Shown here: one piece after another, positions 5,356 through 14,860 of the stretch
Numbering within the stretch: position 1 is the first letter of the stretch
How the letters are laid out: each line of letters opens with the position of its first letter
NCBI GenBank assembly: GCA_027083135.1
Contig: JALWQH010000035.1
Coordinates: 1-50,882, forward strand
From: Desulfurococcales archaeon
GTDB lineage: Archaea > Thermoproteota > Thermoprotei_A > Sulfolobales > WAQK01
DNA length: 50,882 bases
Direction: 5' to 3'
Position numbers and translations under genes: made by a program
The notes under the pieces: generated by a model
The model's input: only the letters and a program-made list of their open reading frames with translations
What the model was told of the DNA's origin: nothing
Database searches by the model: none

Positions 5356-5997
5356 CTAGGCTTTCCTAGGGGTGAAGAGTCTCCCCCAGCTTGTCACATA
5401 TAGGCCTCCTCCCCTCCCCTTCTGGCTGACGAGTCCTAGGCGCTTAAGCTCGGATAAGTTGTTCTGAACAGTCTTCTGTGTTAATCCCAGCTCGCCGGCT
5501 ATTTCAATAGGCCTTATACCTGGATTATCCTTGATTACTGCAAGTATCCGTCTCTTAGCCTCGCTGACGCCTTCCCTCAGCACCCTTAGTATTTTGAGGG
5601 GTATTCTATCCTCGCCTCCCTCTCCCCCCTCGATCTGTATCCATGCCTCCCCCTCAGCGCTGCTTGCCAGTAATCCTAGGAGAACGGCTATTACGACGCA
5701 TCTAGCCCCTCCAGTGAGGTCGGCTATTATTCTCCCCTCCAGGGACTCTATCCTGGATTTAACGGTTGCTGAGGCTTCAGCCATGTTCATGCAGTCTAGT
5801 TCTATTAACCCCCTAGCCTCCACTCCCAGCCTTGAGGCGAAGGCTCTGAGATTCTCCCAGGCGTTAAGTGTGGCGCCTGCCGCGGGTTTCAATGTGAATC
5901 CGAGCATGAGATCCCTGTTCGACGCGTGGTGCTCCATGAGCCTCCTAATAGCGAAGTTCTCATGGTATCCTAGGGTGAAGGCGAATAGCCTTGGCAA
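5356..5997 (-). CDS. csa3: Csa3 regulator (CARF plus winged helix), adaptation side
   Basis: This is a dimeric transcription factor with an N-terminal CARF domain (LFAFTLGYHENFAIRRL; ligand-loop motif DLTGGAR) and a C-terminal MarR/ArsR-like winged helix (about residues 145-210, GELGLTQKTVQNNLSELKR). CARF domains bind cyclic oligoadenylate-type signals. In Sulfolobus, Csa3a next to the adaptation genes activates spacer acquisition; the same role is inferred from position here. The start is TTG 5997 behind GAGGAGG. Its own TATA box lies in the short gap after cas6, so it can be expressed apart from the interference operon. Confidence 0.88.
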   Translation of the reverse strand: MPRLFAFTLGYHENFAIRRLMEHHASNRDLMLGFTLKPAAGATLNAWENLRAFASRLGVEARGLIELDCMNMAEASATVKSRIESLEGRIIADLTGGARCVVIAVLLGLLASSAEGEAWIQIEGGEGGEDRIPLKILRVLREGVSEAKRRILAVIKDNPGIRPIEIAGELGLTQKTVQNNLSELKRLGLVSQKGRGGGLYVTSWGRLFTPRKA

Positions 5998-6042: not shown

Positions 6043-6948
6043 CTAGCCTACCCTCCTGACGCTGACCTGCCCCATCCCTATCCCCCTGGATTTACCTATA
6101 CCCAGATACTTGGCCAGGGCTAGCAGCCTTGAGAGGACATCCATGGGCTTGCGGTGTAGAACCCTGTAATGTATCCATCCAACAGTACCCCTGATCTCCC
6201 TGAACCTCCCATTCCTCTTATCATACAATACTGTCACGGGTTTAAGCCTATAGTTAACCTCAGCCAACACTATGTCGGCTACACGGCCCACCTTGTAGGG
6301 AGCCCATAATCCATCCGAGCCCGGCTTAGGTAACGCTAGCTCGGGAGGCGCATTAGAGTTCCAGAGCTTAGTGAGATAGGCGAATATGAAGCCTGCTGAA
6401 GGAAGAAGCTTATACATGCCTCTAACCCTCCTCCTACCACTGAATACTGGGGGCATCATGATTTTAGTCGACAATATGAGGGGAGTCTCAAACCTCAATA
6501 CAAAGCTGCTCCCTACATCTAGCCTCAGCCCCTCAAGGCTCCTAACATCCACCTCAAGAGGTTCGACCAGGAACTCGCCGTAAGGAGACCTAATCCTTAC
6601 AGTGTCAAGAGGCATAACCGATGAAAGCAGGCTGCCGGAAACTATGAAGGAGACATTAGCAGCACACTGCTCGCCCCCCCTAAGCACCAGGGGAGGCCCA
6701 TCAAGCCTAGACTTATAGATAGGCCTACCCTCACAGTATAGCGGCGAAATACTGAATCCCTTAAACCCCCTCCTCTCCCGGTAAAGCAAACCCACCGTGC
6801 GGGGGGCATAACGCTCCACATAAAACTTCACAATCTTAGAAGTATAAGGAGGAGCAATCACGTCTCTCAGCGGGGTGAATAGAAGTTTTAGCCTAGATAC
6901 ATAGACCTGAGACCTAGAGGATTTACTAGTATTATTGTCCTTTAGCAA
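6043..6948 (-). CDS. cas6: Cas6 pre-crRNA endoribonuclease
   Basis: Cas6 cuts each repeat to leave the 8-nt handle. The C-terminal glycine-rich loop that defines the family is clear (KSRGIGMGQVSVRR, about residues 285-299), as is the preceding LLALAKYLGIG helix. The length of 301 residues is normal. The start is TTG 6948, overlapping the cas3'' stop. The N-terminal half has no histidine at all (the only His residues are in WIHYRVLHRK), so the classical general acid of Cas6 is missing, as reported for some Sulfolobus Cas6 proteins. It is the last gene of the interference operon. Confidence 0.88.
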   Translation of the reverse strand: MLKDNNTSKSSRSQVYVSRLKLLFTPLRDVIAPPYTSKIVKFYVERYAPRTVGLLYRERRGFKGFSISPLYCEGRPIYKSRLDGPPLVLRGGEQCAANVSFIVSGSLLSSVMPLDTVRIRSPYGEFLVEPLEVDVRSLEGLRLDVGSSFVLRFETPLILSTKIMMPPVFSGRRRVRGMYKLLPSAGFIFAYLTKLWNSNAPPELALPKPGSDGLWAPYKVGRVADIVLAEVNYRLKPVTVLYDKRNGRFREIRGTVGWIHYRVLHRKPMDVLSRLLALAKYLGIGKSRGIGMGQVSVRRVG

Positions 6949-7832
6949 GATTCATCACTTATTTCAAGTTCAGATGACATTCTCCTATAGAATAATGATT
7001 TTCCAGGCCTATTATCATATAGATTTGCTGCTAATGTGTCGGCAGCCGAGATTACTCCGGTGATGGCGTAGGATGATGCTCTTAGTAGGTAAAGCATTCT
7101 ACGGGCAGGAGGATTGGGGTCGAAGAGAGCCTTATAAATAGCTCCATCCTCTATGATGCGATGCATCCTGCTAAGGATTGAAGCAATGCTCCAAGAAATT
7201 GAACCCATCCTCCTAGCCGTATATGTAGTTATCTCTAGCACATCTTTTACTAGAATGGAAGCATCATCTCCAAGTACCTGTCTTATAAGGCTCCTAGTAC
7301 TATTATAGGCCTGAAGTGGAGAATCTTCTTCCACAAGCCTGCCACATCTGATTCCACACCATTTCTCCCTGCACCCTGCATATAATGCTTCTAATCCTCT
7401 TCCACCCATGGCATGGTGGTGGCTTAGTACACCATAAGTTGTAAGCGCGAAGAGAGCCTCTGCAGGCTCCTCACCCAAATCGCTGGAAATGCTGCATTCA
7501 TGGTTTAGACACCAGTAATAACCGCTAAGCACATAGTATGCAGAGATTATTTCATGGCCTGCAAACCCTGTTTTACCTCGTCTCACACAGGCTTCGGAGA
7601 AATAGATGCATCCTTTACCTAGATCATGGAGAAGTGCTGCGGCCGAGGAGGCTGCTGGAACAATATATTCAGGCCATTTCCCGTAAACTTTTATTCTCAT
7701 GCCTAGTGTTAGAAGCGGTTCTACAAGCCTCTTATAATGCAGCATAGCTTTAAGCGTGTTCGCTAAATGTATCCAGAGAGGAAGCCTATACCCTTCACGA
7801 CAATAGGCGTATGCATGAATATTCCTAGTCAA
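6942..7832 (-). CDS. cas3'': Cas3'' HD nuclease
   Basis: This stand-alone HD nuclease degrades target DNA with the Cas3' helicase during type I-A interference. Metal-binding motifs visible are LLHDLGKG (the HD pair near residue 70), a following GHEIISA histidine, and VLSHHHAMGG further on. The frame is open from GTG 7850, but I favour TTG 7832, which has GGGAGGG about 8 nt upstream and overlaps the cas3' stop. The C-terminus is helical with no other domain. Separate helicase and nuclease genes are the norm in type I-A. Confidence 0.9.
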   Translation of the reverse strand: MTRNIHAYAYCREGYRLPLWIHLANTLKAMLHYKRLVEPLLTLGMRIKVYGKWPEYIVPAASSAAALLHDLGKGCIYFSEACVRRGKTGFAGHEIISAYYVLSGYYWCLNHECSISSDLGEEPAEALFALTTYGVLSHHHAMGGRGLEALYAGCREKWCGIRCGRLVEEDSPLQAYNSTRSLIRQVLGDDASILVKDVLEITTYTARRMGSISWSIASILSRMHRIIEDGAIYKALFDPNPPARRMLYLLRASSYAITGVISAADTLAANLYDNRPGKSLFYRRMSSELEISDESC

Positions 7833-9483
7833 ACACCAATCCCTCCCCACGTCTATAAAGGCCCGGAGAAACGGATAGGTAAGCTCCTTTAAACAGGATG
7901 TTGCGCCATATATACCTACACCTTTCCCTTCTACTCATCTTAACTAGTTCTCTGCCTAAGGGCTGGCACCCGTTTTCCCTACATATTTGCAGAATATCTT
8001 TCGCAGCGAGTTTGACCACTTGATCAGGCCCTACGGGTATTTCACCCATTCCGCCTACTCTTAACGTTAATACTAACAGCTCCTCGCCCAGCATAACGCA
8101 TGGATCTAGTTTAAGGAGTTCATCAATGAGGCTAGAACCTATAGCAGGACTAGCCATCAGCCTAATTAAGCCTGCAGGACCAGCTCCACTCTTAGGGGCA
8201 GGCTCATATAATGCTAGGTCAACGGGCGACACTTTTTCTCCCGTCTTTTTAAAAGGGCATCTCCACTGAATGCTCGTCGGCCCATATTTATCCACAAGTT
8301 CTTCTAGAAATTCTAGGAGGCCCCTTATCTCCTTCTCCCATGGTTTATAAGGCCCAAGCTCCTCGAGTTCCTCGGAATAAACTATAGTTATAATGCCTTC
8401 TCCCCCACTCCTAGCAGCTCTGCCTGCTCTCTGAATGAGAGAGGATGGGGTGGTTGGGGCAGTTATAATAGCGTCAAAACCCAGGTTTAATCCTGCCTCT
8501 ACAGCCTGTGTTCCCACAAGAATCTGTGTTTTACCCTCCTCATAGAGCCTTATTGATTCCTCTCGATCCCTGGTGGTCATCCTACCATGAATTAGGGGAG
8601 CCTTTACTCCCTGCCTTTCTAATATTCTCTTAACTTTAACAGTCTGCTCAGGTGTGTTCAATACTACCAGTGTTCTTCTTCCTTCCCTGAGGCTCCTTAA
8701 TGCCTCGTTGGAAAGCCTCTCAAAATAAATGCTTGAAGGTGTATCTATTATCCTGGTGAACCAGTGCGCGGAGCATCCGCTCATTTTAAATTCATTATCT
8801 TCTACTAGGATTTCCCTGCATGCAGCCTCGGTTCTCATGCCTTTAAGTTTCACTTCAATGCACTCTGCATGGGGTTCTATATTGGCAGCCTCCTCGGCCA
8901 TGATCCTAGATAGGCTGGGTGTGGGAGTGGCTGTTTCTACCACTATAGGAACACCATGCTGCGCTAAGAATCGTAGAGCAAGGTGGAATTGAGGAAGCCC
9001 TCCATAGAGATGTGCCTCATCAAATACTGTAAGGGAAGAAAGAATATAGGCTCGGGGAAGCTCGAAATGCCTGGAATTCTGCAGGGCTTCGGCTACAGGA
9101 ATTCTGGCTAGGTTAAGGAGAAAGGAATGCATAGTGGTGTAAATTATTTCCCTAGTATAGTATGGGGTTTTACCCTCTAGGGAGAGAGCCATAGCCTGGT
9201 AACCGACGGCTCTAGATATATTGCTTCCCACTATGCCTTGCAGCATTATTCTAGCAGGACCTTCTAAAGCTGACTTCATTGCCTCCCTTACAAGGGCACG
9301 TAGAGGCATCACGTGCATGTAGGATGATGCTAGGCCTGACTTCCTAAGCTCTGCGTAAAGCATGGGGGATGAGGTCGTCTTGCCATAGGATGTGGGGGCA
9401 AACACTAGGATCAGTGGTGTAACGCCTTTCCTAAGAGTAAGGCCTAAGAGTTTTGATGCCTCCGCTATAAGAGGCCTAGGCAT
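7825..9483 (-). CDS. cas3': Cas3' superfamily 2 helicase
   Basis: This is an ATP-dependent DNA helicase of the CRISPR interference complex. The Walker A motif is APTSYGKT (residues 29-36), Walker B is DEAH (155-158), and the C-terminal RecA lobe holds ILVGTQAVEAGLNLGFDA and motif VI in QRAGRAARSGG. It has no HD domain, which is encoded separately just downstream. The length of 552 residues fits the family. The start is ATG 9483, 17 bp after cas8a2, and the gene overlaps cas3''. Confidence 0.93.
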   Translation of the reverse strand: MPRPLIAEASKLLGLTLRKGVTPLILVFAPTSYGKTTSSPMLYAELRKSGLASSYMHVMPLRALVREAMKSALEGPARIMLQGIVGSNISRAVGYQAMALSLEGKTPYYTREIIYTTMHSFLLNLARIPVAEALQNSRHFELPRAYILSSLTVFDEAHLYGGLPQFHLALRFLAQHGVPIVVETATPTPSLSRIMAEEAANIEPHAECIEVKLKGMRTEAACREILVEDNEFKMSGCSAHWFTRIIDTPSSIYFERLSNEALRSLREGRRTLVVLNTPEQTVKVKRILERQGVKAPLIHGRMTTRDREESIRLYEEGKTQILVGTQAVEAGLNLGFDAIITAPTTPSSLIQRAGRAARSGGEGIITIVYSEELEELGPYKPWEKEIRGLLEFLEELVDKYGPTSIQWRCPFKKTGEKVSPVDLALYEPAPKSGAGPAGLIRLMASPAIGSSLIDELLKLDPCVMLGEELLVLTLRVGGMGEIPVGPDQVVKLAAKDILQICRENGCQPLGRELVKMSRRERCRYIWRNILFKGAYLSVSPGLYRRGEGLVFD

Positions 9484-9500
9484 GATCCTGAAACCGCCTC

Positions 9501-10589
9501 CTAAGAAGCCTTGATTTCTATGATTCTGTTTTTCAGCCTGCCTAAGAATTCCACGGGATCACTTATCTCTGCTCTTTTGAACGCCCTTATTATCTTCATC
9601 TTATCCTCCCCCTTACCTCTCCTAAGAAGCCATTCAGCCACGTCTAGCTCTCTCAGAGAAGCATACTTGTAGATATTACTGCCTGTAGAAAGGTAAGCTA
9701 GTAGGCTGTTAGCTACCTTTATGCCCGTTCCCCTCACAGCCTCATCCTGAGCCGTTATTCTCAGGAATGCTTTGAGCATAGAGGCTGCTCCTGAAAGCCT
9801 CTTCGCCATAGAGCCCACTATGTATGGATAAGTGCTTATCACCGTGACTCTATTTCCTTTCTGCAGGTGCACTTCATCGGCTACATGCTCTATAATAACT
9901 CCTGCTTCTGCTACTATTGATGCAACAGCAATGATTTTAGCGGATTCAGGCATCTCACTCATTCCCTTAGAGGAGAAGAGCCTGACAATGCTGCTATGGA
10001 TTTCTGCCAGCCTTAGTATTTCGGATTTAGGTGGAAGAATATATACCATTATGCCATCCTTGGTTCGGGCTGCATATGATGCTAGGGCGCCTAAGCCTGC
10101 CAGTAGTATTGAGAGGGTTGAGGCTTCAAAATCCTTTTTCCGTGAGCTGAGATATGATGATGAGTACTCCATATAGTTGGCTTTAAGGATGGAGGGGAGC
10201 TTAGCCTTAGAAGCTGGATCCATTATTTCAGGTATCTTCCCTTCAATAAGGATCTCCGAGAGCTTCCTCAGTGCTGCACCGATGGTATCCCTTCTCTCCA
10301 GGCCCAGCGAGCTTAGAATACCTCCCAGCACTTTAGGCTTATTATCATTACCTGTCCTCGGAATATCTAGTACTTCAGGGCCTGTAGGCCTTCCCTTAGA
10401 GATCATTCTAAGTGCTTCATCGATTCCTTCGCCTAGAACTTTAGGCTTGGAGGATAATACCAGCCTATCCCCTCTGATCTCAAGTGCTCTGAGACCTGTA
10501 GCCTGATTTACATAGAGGATAGCTGTCTCAAGGAATTTTACGCCAAGTGTTCCAGGAGGCGGCGCTAAGTATGACTGAGGGATCCTCAT
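9501..10589 (-). CDS. cas8a2: Cas8a2 (Csa4-like) large subunit of the type I-A effector
   Basis: The assignment rests mainly on position: between cas5 and cas3' in an otherwise complete type I-A operon, with a size (362 residues) that fits Csa4/Cas8a2. Large subunits recognise the PAM and recruit Cas3 but are too divergent to show clear motifs. Visible features are an N-terminal segment rich in aliphatic residues and a long helical C-terminal half. There is no nuclease motif and no zinc cluster. Its start overlaps the cas5 stop by 4 bp (ATGA). A highly divergent Csx-type protein cannot be excluded. Confidence 0.72.
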   Translation of the reverse strand: MRIPQSYLAPPPGTLGVKFLETAILYVNQATGLRALEIRGDRLVLSSKPKVLGEGIDEALRMISKGRPTGPEVLDIPRTGNDNKPKVLGGILSSLGLERRDTIGAALRKLSEILIEGKIPEIMDPASKAKLPSILKANYMEYSSSYLSSRKKDFEASTLSILLAGLGALASYAARTKDGIMVYILPPKSEILRLAEIHSSIVRLFSSKGMSEMPESAKIIAVASIVAEAGVIIEHVADEVHLQKGNRVTVISTYPYIVGSMAKRLSGAASMLKAFLRITAQDEAVRGTGIKVANSLLAYLSTGSNIYKYASLRELDVAEWLLRRGKGEDKMKIIRAFKRAEISDPVEFLGRLKNRIIEIKAS

Positions 10590-11383
10590 TGTTTACCCGC
10601 CTCACCAATGTGTTCTCTCGGAATAACTGCAGCCATTTTACCCTTAGGCGTATTAAATAGAACAGTGATGCATTTCTTAGCGTTTATAATGTCTGGTGCG
10701 AGTCTCCCCCAACCTCCATACATTCCTGCCCGATATGGTACAAGCCATGTAGACAGCTCAGAGGATATATCGCTGCTAAAGGCCTTAGAGGACGGTGGAA
10801 CGTATTCTGTTTCAACCCAACTGCTAGGCCTCTTCAACACGCAGTGGGAAGGAATGGGGAAAAAGATTCTATGTATTAATGTAGCGGCTTCTAGAGGGCT
10901 TAGTGAAACATCTATTACTTCAACCAAGGATTCCTTGTTTCCTAAAGCTGTTATGCCCCATCCATACTTAGCTAGATCCCATGCCCACTTATCTCCAACT
11001 ATATAGAGGAGAATTGCTTCTCCATCGTAGCTTATCCTACCTAGAGTAGTTGCTGCAAAAGCCATTGCCAGCGTTCTATTCTGAGGTCTGAGATAGGGGA
11101 GTGATAAAGCTTTAAACAAGGCGCGGTAAGGGGTGGCCTTAGCCTCCATGAGTGCCGGAGCAGCCCACCTTACTTTTTCTAAGAGTCTGCTAGCGTATGA
11201 GCATGGCCTGTCATCCACGTGTATAACTTCAGGTTCTCCTAGAGTTCTGGCCTCAGCTGCTGCAAGCGCTCCAATTAAAGTGGTTGGTGAAGGATAGATC
11301 ATGGGCTCCCTAGCACTACTCTGGCCAGGATATTTAATTGAGTAGCCTTCTAAAAAACGAATTAGTATTGTAAGAGCCTTCAA
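10586..11383 (-). CDS. cas5: Cas5 effector subunit (type I-A)
   Basis: Cas5 is a RAMP-fold protein that caps the 5' handle of crRNA in the Cascade complex. The N-terminus has the family signature, a first strand (LTILIRFLEGYSIKYPG) followed by a Pro/Tyr-rich loop and the helix YPSPTTLIGALAAAE. The start is TTG 11383 with GGAG just upstream, 7 bp after cas7. The length of 265 residues is typical. No catalytic residues are expected, because Cas6 does the processing. Confidence 0.88.
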   Translation of the reverse strand: MKALTILIRFLEGYSIKYPGQSSAREPMIYPSPTTLIGALAAAEARTLGEPEVIHVDDRPCSYASRLLEKVRWAAPALMEAKATPYRALFKALSLPYLRPQNRTLAMAFAATTLGRISYDGEAILLYIVGDKWAWDLAKYGWGITALGNKESLVEVIDVSLSPLEAATLIHRIFFPIPSHCVLKRPSSWVETEYVPPSSKAFSSDISSELSTWLVPYRAGMYGGWGRLAPDIINAKKCITVLFNTPKGKMAAVIPREHIGEAGKQ

Positions 11384-11390
11384 GGCTCCT

Positions 11391-12389
11391 TCACTCCACG
11401 GTACCCTTGTTTTTTATCTCTGTGAGAACCCATGTCATCAGCTCCTCGAAATTCTCCAGTATCTCTACCTTAATTTTCTGGGGTTCTACTGTGGGCTTTA
11501 CTCCCATTATGCCTATGGATATATTCTGTAGAATGCTAGTGCTGCCTTTAGAAAGATGTTTGAGCATGCTTTGTGCTCTGTGAAGCGTCTGCTCTACATA
11601 GTTTTCAAGTCTAGGGCTGGATGCTGTGAAGGGTATTGGATGCGATATTACTGCTACCGCGTTAAGCATCTCCCAGTCGGCTGGGAAGAACCTGGCCTTC
11701 TTTGCCCCGAAGCCCATATTACCCAGGGTTACTGTAAGGGCCTTAATAGCTGCTTCTATTCTTTTAATCCTCTCTTCTTTACCTACAATGTATTTAGCCT
11801 CTCCTAGGGCTGATTTGCCTATACCGTCTACGTCTAGCTCCGCTTTAAGACCATATATGGCTGTGGCTACTTCAACATTATATATTGCCTGCATCTCCTT
11901 GGCTTCAGGTTCATATCTCACGTGGAATTCAGGTTCTACGGCTACTGCTCTCAGAGCTTCACGTATAGGAACCATGTAGCCGAATGTTATCCTCGAAGTT
12001 CTTTTAACCGTCTTCTTGGGGTATAGGAAGCCTCCAACATCCTCTACGACACAGTTCTTGACTACATGCTCCTCTATTTCCTCGGGCTTCTTCTCCGCTG
12101 GTTTAATTCCGTGGAAGTACTTGTCATCAGCATGTTTAACTAGCACTCCCTTTCTGCACCATTCGCAAACGGGTAGCCCTAGCTCATCAGCCAGTTTTGC
12201 CAGGTTGACCTGATAGGCATGGGCTAGAGACTCCCCGCTTATCGCAGGAACATATTCTATTCTATAGCCGTCTTCTGCCTCCACTATTACTGGTGCCCTC
12301 CTTCTTCTCACATAGTTTCCAATGGATTCGGACATGTTTAGGGCTTCTACATCGAGCCTTATTCTCGCGGAGAGTGAAACATAGACCAT
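11391..12389 (-). CDS. cas7: Cas7 (Csa2) backbone subunit
   Basis: Cas7 polymerises along the crRNA spacer to form the Cascade backbone. The N-terminus (VYVSLSARIRLDVEALN followed by MSESIGNYVRRRRAP) is characteristic of the Csa2/DevR group. CEWCRKG and a second Cys in the 85-120 region might bind metal. The frame opens at TTG 12404, but ATG 12389 has GGTGGG close upstream and starts at the conserved first strand, giving 332 residues. It lies 22 bp after csa5. As in other type I-A operons, it is probably the most abundant product. Confidence 0.9.
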   Translation of the reverse strand: MVYVSLSARIRLDVEALNMSESIGNYVRRRRAPVIVEAEDGYRIEYVPAISGESLAHAYQVNLAKLADELGLPVCEWCRKGVLVKHADDKYFHGIKPAEKKPEEIEEHVVKNCVVEDVGGFLYPKKTVKRTSRITFGYMVPIREALRAVAVEPEFHVRYEPEAKEMQAIYNVEVATAIYGLKAELDVDGIGKSALGEAKYIVGKEERIKRIEAAIKALTVTLGNMGFGAKKARFFPADWEMLNAVAVISHPIPFTASSPRLENYVEQTLHRAQSMLKHLSKGSTSILQNISIGIMGVKPTVEPQKIKVEILENFEELMTWVLTEIKNKGTVE

Positions 12390-12411
12390 GTTTCCCACCT
12401 GCAACTATAAG

Positions 12412-12864
12412 TTATGATTTAGAGGGCCTATAGGCGTGGGCTAGGATCGCCACTTCTTTAGCTATGGAGACATCTTTGCTTATCTTTTCTAAAAAACCTC
12501 GCAGCTCCTCCTCAGAGGGTATGGGAGGGCAGGGTATACAGTAGATTCTTGCACCTTTAAGGTCTTCAGGCCCCTCCAATAACCCCTCCACTACGCCTTG
12601 AATCCCATATCCTAGTTCTTCTCCATACTCGCAGCATTGAAGCTGATATGTTTTTTCTTCGCCTTGAGAAGTTTTAGTTCTTAGTGCTATTCTTATGCTT
12701 CTTGCTTTAAGTGAGTTAGCTATTCTTAGGGCTTCATATAATGAAGCTTTTATTGCCGCAGGTGATGTTGCATTAGCTATCCTATCAACAATACTATACC
12801 GCCCCGATTCAATGAAGAATCTTAGTAGACCTATTATTCCCCAATATTCCGAGTCCGAGTACAT
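12412..12864 (-). CDS. csa5: Csa5 (Cas11-type small subunit)
   Basis: This is the first gene of the interference operon. Csa5 is the small helical subunit of the type I-A complex, lining the non-target strand or R-loop. The protein is 150 residues from ATG 12864, which has GGAGGGT 7 nt upstream. An in-frame ATG at 12897 would add 11 residues and lies too close to the likely TATA box. The N-terminal helices (YWGIIGLLRFFIESGRYSIV) fit the family. The C-terminus is helical, and Cys residues in LQCCEYGEE are unusual but without a clear role. Confidence 0.82.
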   Translation of the reverse strand: MYSDSEYWGIIGLLRFFIESGRYSIVDRIANATSPAAIKASLYEALRIANSLKARSIRIALRTKTSQGEEKTYQLQCCEYGEELGYGIQGVVEGLLEGPEDLKGARIYCIPCPPIPSEEELRGFLEKISKDVSIAKEVAILAHAYRPSKS

Positions 12865-12898
12865 ATTGCAGACCCTCCACAATATACTTGGCTGCATC

Positions 12899-12908
12899 CC
12901 TTAAAAAT
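12899..12908 (-). promoter_or_regulatory. TATA box of the interference operon
   Basis: ATTTTTAAGG on the minus strand is placed so that transcription would begin near 12875, about 10 nt before the ATG of csa5 and just ahead of its GGAGGGT site. It directly abuts the inverted repeat at 12910-12947. Confidence 0.5.
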
Positions 12909-12909
12909 C

Positions 12910-12947
12910 TTTCATTTGGAAAATGGATTTTCAGCTTCCAAATGAAA
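12910..12947. promoter_or_regulatory. perfect inverted repeat, probable operator between csa5 and csa3
   Basis: TTTCATTTGGAA (12910-12921) and TTCCAAATGAAA (12936-12947) are exact reverse complements separated by 14 bp. The element lies between the divergent csa5 operon and the second csa3 gene, immediately upstream of the csa5 TATA box. This is the place where a dimeric winged-helix regulator such as Csa3 would bind. Binding is inferred from symmetry and position. Confidence 0.65.
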
Positions 12948-13014
12948 TATGAAAGGAGATACCATCAAACTATTTACCTTCAGAAGTACTTACAGAATTC
13001 TGGTGTAAAGGAAC

Positions 13015-13701
13015 ATGGTTTCCATTGTAGCTGCTATGGGTTTTGATTGGAGGCATGTAGTGAGATCCATATTGAGAATCGGATTTAAGGAGTGTACATC
13101 TATTCACCTCCTCCTACCTCCTTGGAGCGATGAAAGAGCAGAAGCAGGAATAAAAGAAGTGGAAAAGATAGCATTAGCCGCAGGGCTATCTAAGGAAAAA
13201 ATACATACACATAGGCTGGATGTGAGGAATTACCAGGAAACTATAATGCAATTAGCAAAAATGTATGTTGACCTAATGAGTGAGGGAGGAGTCCTTCTCT
13301 CGCTAGGTGGGGGCATGAGAATATTGGTAGTGGAGGCTTTGGCGGCAGCATTAATGCTAGGTGAGAAGGATTGGAGAAAGCATGTTAGGATAGTAGTGGA
13401 TCTAGAGGGGAGAGAGGAATCCGTAGAGTTCTCCGCAGAAGACCTAGCATCTCTAAGCCTTAAACCACCTAACGCTAGAGAACTAGAAGCCATTAAAATA
13501 GCTTTAGACTCAGGGACAGTAACACCTAAGAAGCTTTCAGAAATCCTAGAGATTCCACGCTCAACAGCTCACGCCATCCTTGGAGAGGCTTTACGCAAAG
13601 GCTATTTAGAGAAAATAGGATGGGGAAAATACAGGGCAACGTCATTAGGCAAAGCCATACTATACCTCCATAAAATACAAAGGAACAACAAACTCCCTTG
13701 A
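13015..13701 (+). CDS. csa3: second Csa3 regulator (CARF plus winged helix), interference side
   Basis: An N-terminal CARF domain (MVSIVAAMGFDWRHVVRSI; ligand-loop LSLGGGMRILVVEALAAAL at about 95-115) is joined to a winged helix (about 150-220, KKLSEILEIPRSTAHAILG). It differs clearly in sequence from the other Csa3 in the window. It is divergent from csa5 and upstream of array 2. In Sulfolobus, Csa3b next to the interference genes represses them together with Cascade; the same role is inferred here. The start is ATG 13015 with a weak AAAGGAA site. A possible TATA box (ACTATTTACC) lies near 12970-12979. Confidence 0.87.
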   Translation: MVSIVAAMGFDWRHVVRSILRIGFKECTSIHLLLPPWSDERAEAGIKEVEKIALAAGLSKEKIHTHRLDVRNYQETIMQLAKMYVDLMSEGGVLLSLGGGMRILVVEALAAALMLGEKDWRKHVRIVVDLEGREESVEFSAEDLASLSLKPPNARELEAIKIALDSGTVTPKKLSEILEIPRSTAHAILGEALRKGYLEKIGWGKYRATSLGKAILYLHKIQRNNKLP

Positions 13702-13949
13702 AAAAGAGGGAGATATATAAGCTTTACCTACAGAATCCAGCCCACAATCATCATTAAGCATGAGAACAAATGCATCTAAATGAAACAAACCCTCCAATTC
13801 CCTGAACATCCAAGGGAGCAAGCATCTTCAACGAATAGTAAAACTTATTAACACACAAAGCCTCCCACACGAAGCTTAATTAACGCCAACATAAATTTTA
13901 TAAACGAAGCCAGAATCCACTCATGGAATACACAGAAATCCCACGTGCA
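13702..13949 (+). promoter_or_regulatory. leader and promoter of CRISPR array 2
   Basis: This is a gene-free A/C-rich stretch ending in AATCCCACGTGCA (13937-13949) against the first repeat, identical to array 1. AACATAAATTTTATAAACG (13888-13906) is a strong TATA element in the same relative place as the one in leader 1. It would start transcription about 24-29 nt before the repeat. A degenerate repeat-like copy (GAATCCACTCATGGAAT, 13913-13929) lies within the leader. Confidence 0.8.
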
Positions 13950-14860
13950 GAATCCATTAAATGGAATTGAAAGCTACAAGCAATATAAACTACGGGCTGA
14001 GAAGTATCTTACAAGAATCCATTAAATGGAATTGAAAGTGCGGGACATAAGCTAACAGCTGAATTTGATGCATCAGAATCCATTAAATGGAATTGAAAGA
14101 TAAACTCTGCATTGGCTGCCAAAGCGGTGGTGGTCTCTACGAATCCATTAAATGGAATTGAAAGTCTTCTTCCCACGCTTCCGCCTCTTCGCCTGTTTCT
14201 CTGAATCCATTAAATGGAATTGAAAGGCGCAGGCCTCTCGACCCAGGCAATGAGCATAGTGTTAAGGGAATCCATTAAATGGAATTGAAAGCGGCCAACA
14301 CCACGCTGACAGTATACGGCTACCAGATGGGCGAATCCATTAAATGGAATTGAAAGGGCCAAATATTCAAGCTCGTAGGATTGTTCACGGGTCTGGGAAT
14401 CCATTAAATGGAATTGAAAGTCAATCACCCTTCTAACGTATTCCTTGTGCAGCAATATGAATCCATTAAATGGAATTGAAAGTGATGGCCCGCCTAGGCA
14501 TACCGACCCACGTCATAGACTGAATCCATTAAATGGAATTGAAAGTATGTTGGTGACCCAGAGGCCCGCGGTGCCTAGTGAATCCATTAAATGGAATTGA
14601 AAGCTTATCCGGCCTGTAGCTCTCCACCCCTACATGCTCATGAATCCATATAAATGGAATTGAAAGCCAGCCCACACCCATGCAAAATCATCGCCAGTTA
14701 TGGTTATCAGGAATCCATTAAATGGAATTGAAAGGTATTACATCTTCAATCCAGTTGACGAATATGTTGGATGCTGAATCCATTAAATGGAATTGAAAGA
14801 TAACCGTCTTCAACCTATGCCCCGACTCCAAGAGCAGAATCCATTAAATGGAATTGAAAG
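13950..14860 (+). CRISPR. CRISPR array 2, 15 repeats, transcribed rightward
   Basis: Fifteen copies of the array 1 repeat in the opposite orientation start at 13950, 14015, 14076, 14141, 14203, 14268, 14333, 14397, 14459, 14522, 14580, 14642, 14711, 14776 and 14837. They flank 14 unique spacers, mostly 37-41 bp with extremes of 34 and 44 bp. The copy at 14642 is 25 bp long, with an extra base in the loop of the palindrome. The 3' end ATTGAAAG fixes plus-strand transcription, with the leader on the left next to csa3. Confidence 0.98.

Follow-up and report, generated by a model that had tools for sequence, protein, structure and literature searches.

A perfect 12-bp inverted repeat in the promoter shared by csa5 and a divergent csa3 gene is most plausibly (probability of roughly two in three) a two-dimer operator of the adjacent Csa3b-like Csa3 protein, through which the type I-A interference operon would be repressed. 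The letters of the repeat, its position, and its uniqueness in the genome are shown, the neighbouring gene fits the Csa3 family, and the TTTC..GAAA palindrome recurs in the csa3-csa5 regions of many genera. Binding by Csa3, its arrangement as a pair of dimers, and a repressive effect are inferred. The window, meaning the whole stretch of 50,882 bases that was analysed, is described by the features in Table 1, in which the promoter elements and the transcript start used below were called by eye.

Table 1. Features of the csa5/csa3 promoter and of the surrounding type I-A locus, in window positions
Feature	Position	Strand	Basis or remark
First csa3, Csa3a-like	5356-5997		Recognition helix QKTVQNNL
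Remaining operon genes under the putative operator	6043..12404	minus	cas7/csa2 and cas5 by family score
cas8a-like, cas3 helicase, cas3 HD, cas6	within 6043..12404	minus	Inferred from order and sequence, without family score
csa5, opening the type I-A interference operon	12412..12864	minus	Re-called start ATG 12864
csa5 TATA box TTTTTAAG	12900..12907	minus	Sequence; assigned by position
BRE of csa5, overlapping the proximal arm	about 12908-12913	minus	By position
Left arm of the perfect inverted repeat, TTTCATTTGGAA	12910..12921	.	Direct sequence reading, repeat search, shuffle test
csa5-proximal palindrome TTTC-N5-GAAA	12910..12922	.	Half-sites 12910-12913 and 12919-12922; gap atypical of this family
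csa5-distal palindrome TTTC-N11-GAAA (TTTCA-N9-TGAAA)	12929..12947	.	Pattern scan
Right arm, TTCCAAATGAAA, which complements the left arm exactly	12936..12947	.	Direct reading, repeat search, shuffle test
Second csa3, Csa3b-like CARF/winged-helix regulator	13015..13701	plus	TIGR01884, Csa3_N; recognition helix PRSTAHAIL

Inverted repeat: The 14-nt spacer between the arms is AATGGATTTTCAGC, and direct reading and a repeat search return the same arms, so that the coordinates and letters of the first-pass annotation are correct. With spacers of up to 40 nt, no other perfect inverted repeat of the window is as long as this one with its 12-bp arms; the runner-up has arms of 10, and the longest arms in ten shuffled windows are 9-11. 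When the 150-bp intergenic region was shuffled 2000 times, arms of 12 bp came up once, and the repeat is taken to exceed chance. The 12-mer had also been offered as a sequence for searching the genome, which did not hold up: the exact 12-mer has 2 copies in the 1,747,803-base assembly, both of which are the arms, and it thus marks one operator and not a regulon half-site. The exact operator sequence has no match in the viral contigs. Owing to its position upstream of both the csa5 TATA box and the csa3 start, the repeat is most likely a DNA element rather than an RNA hairpin.

The repeat sits between csa5 and the divergent second csa3, and its arm is 2 bp from the csa5 TATA box, which agrees with the earlier description of a site directly upstream of that box. 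Read in the direction of csa5, the elements run TTTC-N11-GAAA-N6-TTTC-N5-GAAA-GA-TTTTTAAG, with the last half-site covering the BRE. When tested for its place, the putative operator is found in the promoter of csa5, the gene with which the type I-A interference operon begins. The csa5 start is probably ATG 12864 rather than the longest-ORF start at 12897, because the Shine-Dalgarno sequence GGAGGG (12878-12873, minus) lies 8 nt upstream of this ATG and the transcript start predicted from the TATA box, near 12877-12881, is downstream of 12897. The TATA box of csa3 is uncertain and is perhaps CTATTTACC near 12968.

Csa3 proteins: The second Csa3 scores 65.3 bits against TIGR01884 (cut-off 60.2) and 47.7 bits against Csa3_N (PF22662, cut-off 27), while its winged helix alone is below the Pfam cut-offs. 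A K and an N are listed as conserved in the recognition helix of Csa3a (PMC8699464). The first Csa3 of the locus keeps these residues and the second does not, and for this reason the second is called Csa3b-like. Its identity to the others in the compared set is at most about 33%, and a PDB search by sequence at a threshold of 1e-3 gave no match.

Tandem palindromes: The site consists of two tandem palindromes, TTTC-GAAA-TTTC-GAAA over 38 bp, with centres 22 bp apart and atypical spacings; their distances from the csa5 TATA box are 2 and 21 bp. The perfect 12-bp repeat is made of the outer two half-sites and their flanks. The distal palindrome is the sole TTTC-N7..11-GAAA in the 50.9 kb window, and the doubled pattern occurs once in the genome. 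In shuffles of its own region the doubled site has a P of 0.0001, with the pattern range widened to take in N5 and N11. A palindrome with the N7-10 spacing of the relatives, which is a property of this set and not a published definition, is absent from the window region. The reading with the best support is an operator for the adjacent CARF/winged-helix regulator through which effector levels would be set, as the first-pass annotation had proposed, and in position and rough length the site agrees with the Csa3b analogy. The motif that can be transferred to other genomes consists of the four half-sites TTTC-GAAA-TTTC-GAAA and not of the 12-bp half-site.

Comparison set: Both this csa3 and cas7 are absent from the two remaining genomes of the family, which hence cannot test the repeat. 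As no close relative with the locus was available, csa3-csa5 regions were drawn from genomes of the order and phylum, with csa3, csa5, and cas7 located by profiles built from these loci and gene starts estimated from the same profiles, and therefore approximate. A total of 91 regions with csa3 and csa5 close by were kept, 49 divergent and 42 co-directional. A Cas7 scan of the genome contigs gave four loci only, all of them distant. In two other archaeal MAGs, L037 and L038, cas7 is closer to that of the window than most cas7 of the window's own order, and a CRISPR repeat lies about 50-70 bp upstream of csa5, as the end of an array in L037 (about 540-730) and as a single repeat in L038 (4585-4622).

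In an unbiased scan of 4-mer half-sites, TTTC-N7..10-GAAA is the top palindrome, present in 31 of the 91 regions versus 2.9 in shuffles (z 19.8); the next-best half-site, TCCA with a gap of 7-10, is present in 9 regions versus 0.8. The gap of TTTC/GAAA peaks at 8 (16 regions), followed by 9 and 10 (9 regions each), with less than 1 in shuffles at each of these values, and the gap of 11 found in the window occurs in 3 regions versus 0.6; both window spacings, N5 and N11, fall outside the peak at N8-10. A second rise at N27-30 corresponds to the outer pair of the doubled site. With one region per genus, the motif is present in 20-22 of 59 genera, versus about 1.7 in shuffles, and in 13 of 25 families. 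It is found in 10 of 36 promoter regions versus 10 of 931 AT-matched background stretches of the same loci, and in a second comparison in 16 of 35 versus 35 of 651. About two thirds of the 91 regions are free of the motif.

Doubled sites spanning 32-38 bp occur in 10 regions including the window, versus 0.03 in shuffles. The other nine (L149, L155, L157, L172, L177, L188, L105, L020, and L030) resemble the window in order, in span, and in the adjoining csa5 TATA box. In contrast to the window, the spacing within each palindrome is 7-10, and the outer arms form no long perfect repeat. The window site is ordinary in kind, and it is the comparison that yields a testable motif. In most regions with a visible csa5 TATA box, the distance from that box back to the end of the listed palindrome upstream is 0-10 bp or about 21-29 bp, and at the longer distance the gap looks, by eye only, to be filled by a second, weaker palindrome. 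L020 and L030, which belong to one genus, each carry three TTTC-N7-GAAA palindromes in the csa3-csa5 gap, with matching positions and different inner letters. Another region, L008 of genome G091, has a csa3 for which no neighbouring cas7 was found and which has its own repeat, ATCGTTTAG-19-CTAAACGAT (1556-1592), abutting the TATA box TTTTTAAT; the layout is the same as in the window and the letters are different.

On the tree of the compared Csa3 proteins the motif is clustered yet scattered over several groups, with 14 changes versus 27 in shuffles. The window Csa3 has a long branch, and the members close to it include some that carry the motif and some that do not; in L049 and L050, which are among its nearest relatives, the motif is absent. 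A tie between recognition-helix class and motif (Fisher p 2e-6 in a plain table) was unsupported once phylogeny was controlled. A GTANCC operator for the lineage with the KQxLxKIL helix had been suggested by visual inspection of a few regions and was inconsistent on counting. A limited literature search gave no published statement of a TTTC-N8-GAAA motif.

Published systems: He et al. (2017) reportedly described two palindromic repeats at the csa5 promoter of Sulfolobus islandicus. The S. islandicus Csa3b operator and the window site are alike in the Csa3-family gene beside csa5 and in having palindromic elements in the promoter of csa5. At csa1 and cmr4 the S. islandicus Csa3b footprint covers about 41 bp, in sequences described as similar to the csa5 site, and a putative 39-bp site is given for cmr7 (Ye et al. 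2020, PMC7480081). The window site, at 38 bp, is likened to these footprints of about 41 bp by position and length and not by letters. Differences from S. islandicus are the divergent csa3, the N5/N11 spacings, the perfect 12-bp outer repeat, and a genome in which no type III system was found. The Csa3b site is called unrelated to CAPPa, TCCCN8GGGA, which is associated with Csa3a (PMC8699464). CAPPa is an element of the same kind, a dyad of short half-sites about 8 bp apart that is found in leaders and directly before the BRE/TATA of cas genes, whereas the window site has the half-site TTTC/GAAA, belongs to the csa5 promoter, and is doubled.

Under the preferred operator reading, two Csa3 dimers would lie side by side, each on one TTTC..GAAA palindrome, with the outermost half-sites and their flanks making up the perfect repeat. 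Bound Csa3 would block TFB/TBP, because the csa5-side half-site is 2 bp from the TATA box and over the BRE, and the type I-A interference operon would be kept low. In S. islandicus the interference operon is described as repressed by Csa3b together with Cascade (PMC8844856, PMC10013973). By analogy with that organism only, Cascade may join the Csa3-DNA complex as a co-repressor and may leave it on finding a target, which would relieve the repression.

The main rival keeps the same operator and reverses its sign: Csa3 bound just upstream of the BRE would recruit TFB, as is reported for Csa3a at the csa1 promoter. Archaeal activators typically sit directly before the core promoter, which is stated for Csa3a (PMC4333418), and in several relatives 21-29 bp separate the listed palindrome from the TATA box. 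However, the proximal half-site overlaps the BRE in the window, and for Csa3b, which in Sulfolobus is the csa5-adjoining paralogue, repression of this operon is reported (PMC8844856), which leaves activation unlikely. It is very unlikely that the reader of the site is the other, Csa3a-like Csa3, or both proteins in competition. The locus does encode two Csa3 proteins and a published Csa3a site of S. islandicus, TTCNTAACTAAANANGGNNNGAAA, also ends in GAAA, but the Csa3a-associated motif TCCCN8GGGA (PMC8699464) is absent from 12865-13014, and the Csa3a-type K and N are in the helix of the first Csa3 and missing in that of the second.

The two remaining readings dispense with a Csa3 operator. A palindrome that arose by chance, or a BRE/TATA context without a regulator, would account for a single feature picked after reading 50 kb, and GAAA beside a TATA box can partly be BRE sequence; the repeat is nevertheless unique and rare, and 13 families show palindromes in the corresponding promoter region, which makes this explanation very improbable. 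A degenerate CRISPR repeat, belonging to a crRNA-like RNA that would regulate the cas operon, is suggested by the resemblance of CTTTCATTTGGAAAATGGATT to the repeat CTTTCAATTCCATTTAATGGATT. Since the best local alignment score is equalled in 9.5% of same-region shuffles (P 0.095) and the element is upstream of the csa5 TATA box, the chances of such an origin are close to negligible.

CRISPR leaders: Single 2-mismatch matches to the half-site in the leaders, at 2356 and 13774, were rejected, as each has a chance P of about 0.06-0.12, the two are not alignable to each other, and the one at 2356 is inside a different, CAPPa-like leader element. The pattern TCYAAAKGAAA has five genome copies only, but it was derived from these leader matches themselves. 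The leaders of the two CRISPR arrays (2227-2640 and 13702-13949) share ATCCCACGTGCA beside the first repeat, and both have a CCC..AAC.TCCAA.GG element about 130-150 bp upstream, which in leader 2 takes the form TCCC-N11-GGGA, like a stretched CAPPa site. A hairpin, CTCCCTT-GAAA-AAGAGGGAG, is present at 13693-13712, at the end of the second csa3 and just before the array 2 leader. In array 2, one repeat (14642-14666, GAATCCATATAAATGGAATTGAAAG) has an extra base, unlike the others.

Oligoadenylates: Neither the Cas10 palm (PF22335) nor the type III RAMP (PF03787) has a match in the genome, which is 99.6% complete in 57 contigs, and two CARF-type Csa3 proteins are present in it all the same. An oligoadenylate signal from a type III system in this cell is accordingly judged unlikely from sequence, and the part of the first-pass annotation that invoked cyclic oligoadenylates is weakened. 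Of the cA4 pocket motifs (GF[N/D].. and ..G-x-R; PMC8844856), GFD and GGGMR are seen by eye in the second Csa3, in which the F after motif 1 is V. We advance only tentatively, as a doubtful extension, that TTTC-N8..10-GAAA at the core promoter of csa5, in many cases as a pair spanning 32-38 bp, may be an old operator code of the Csa3b type throughout the phylum, and that in genomes lacking type III systems it may work without cyclic oligoadenylates, for example by sensing free Cascade.

As far as the literature search went, knowledge of the control of CRISPR interference by Csa3b rests on S. islandicus. The motif TTTC-N8..10-GAAA, often doubled and near the csa5 TATA box, is present in about a third of the sampled genera and predicts places of Csa3 binding in uncultivated archaea. 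The window genome, which is apparently without type III, could separate control by oligoadenylates from control based on Cascade.
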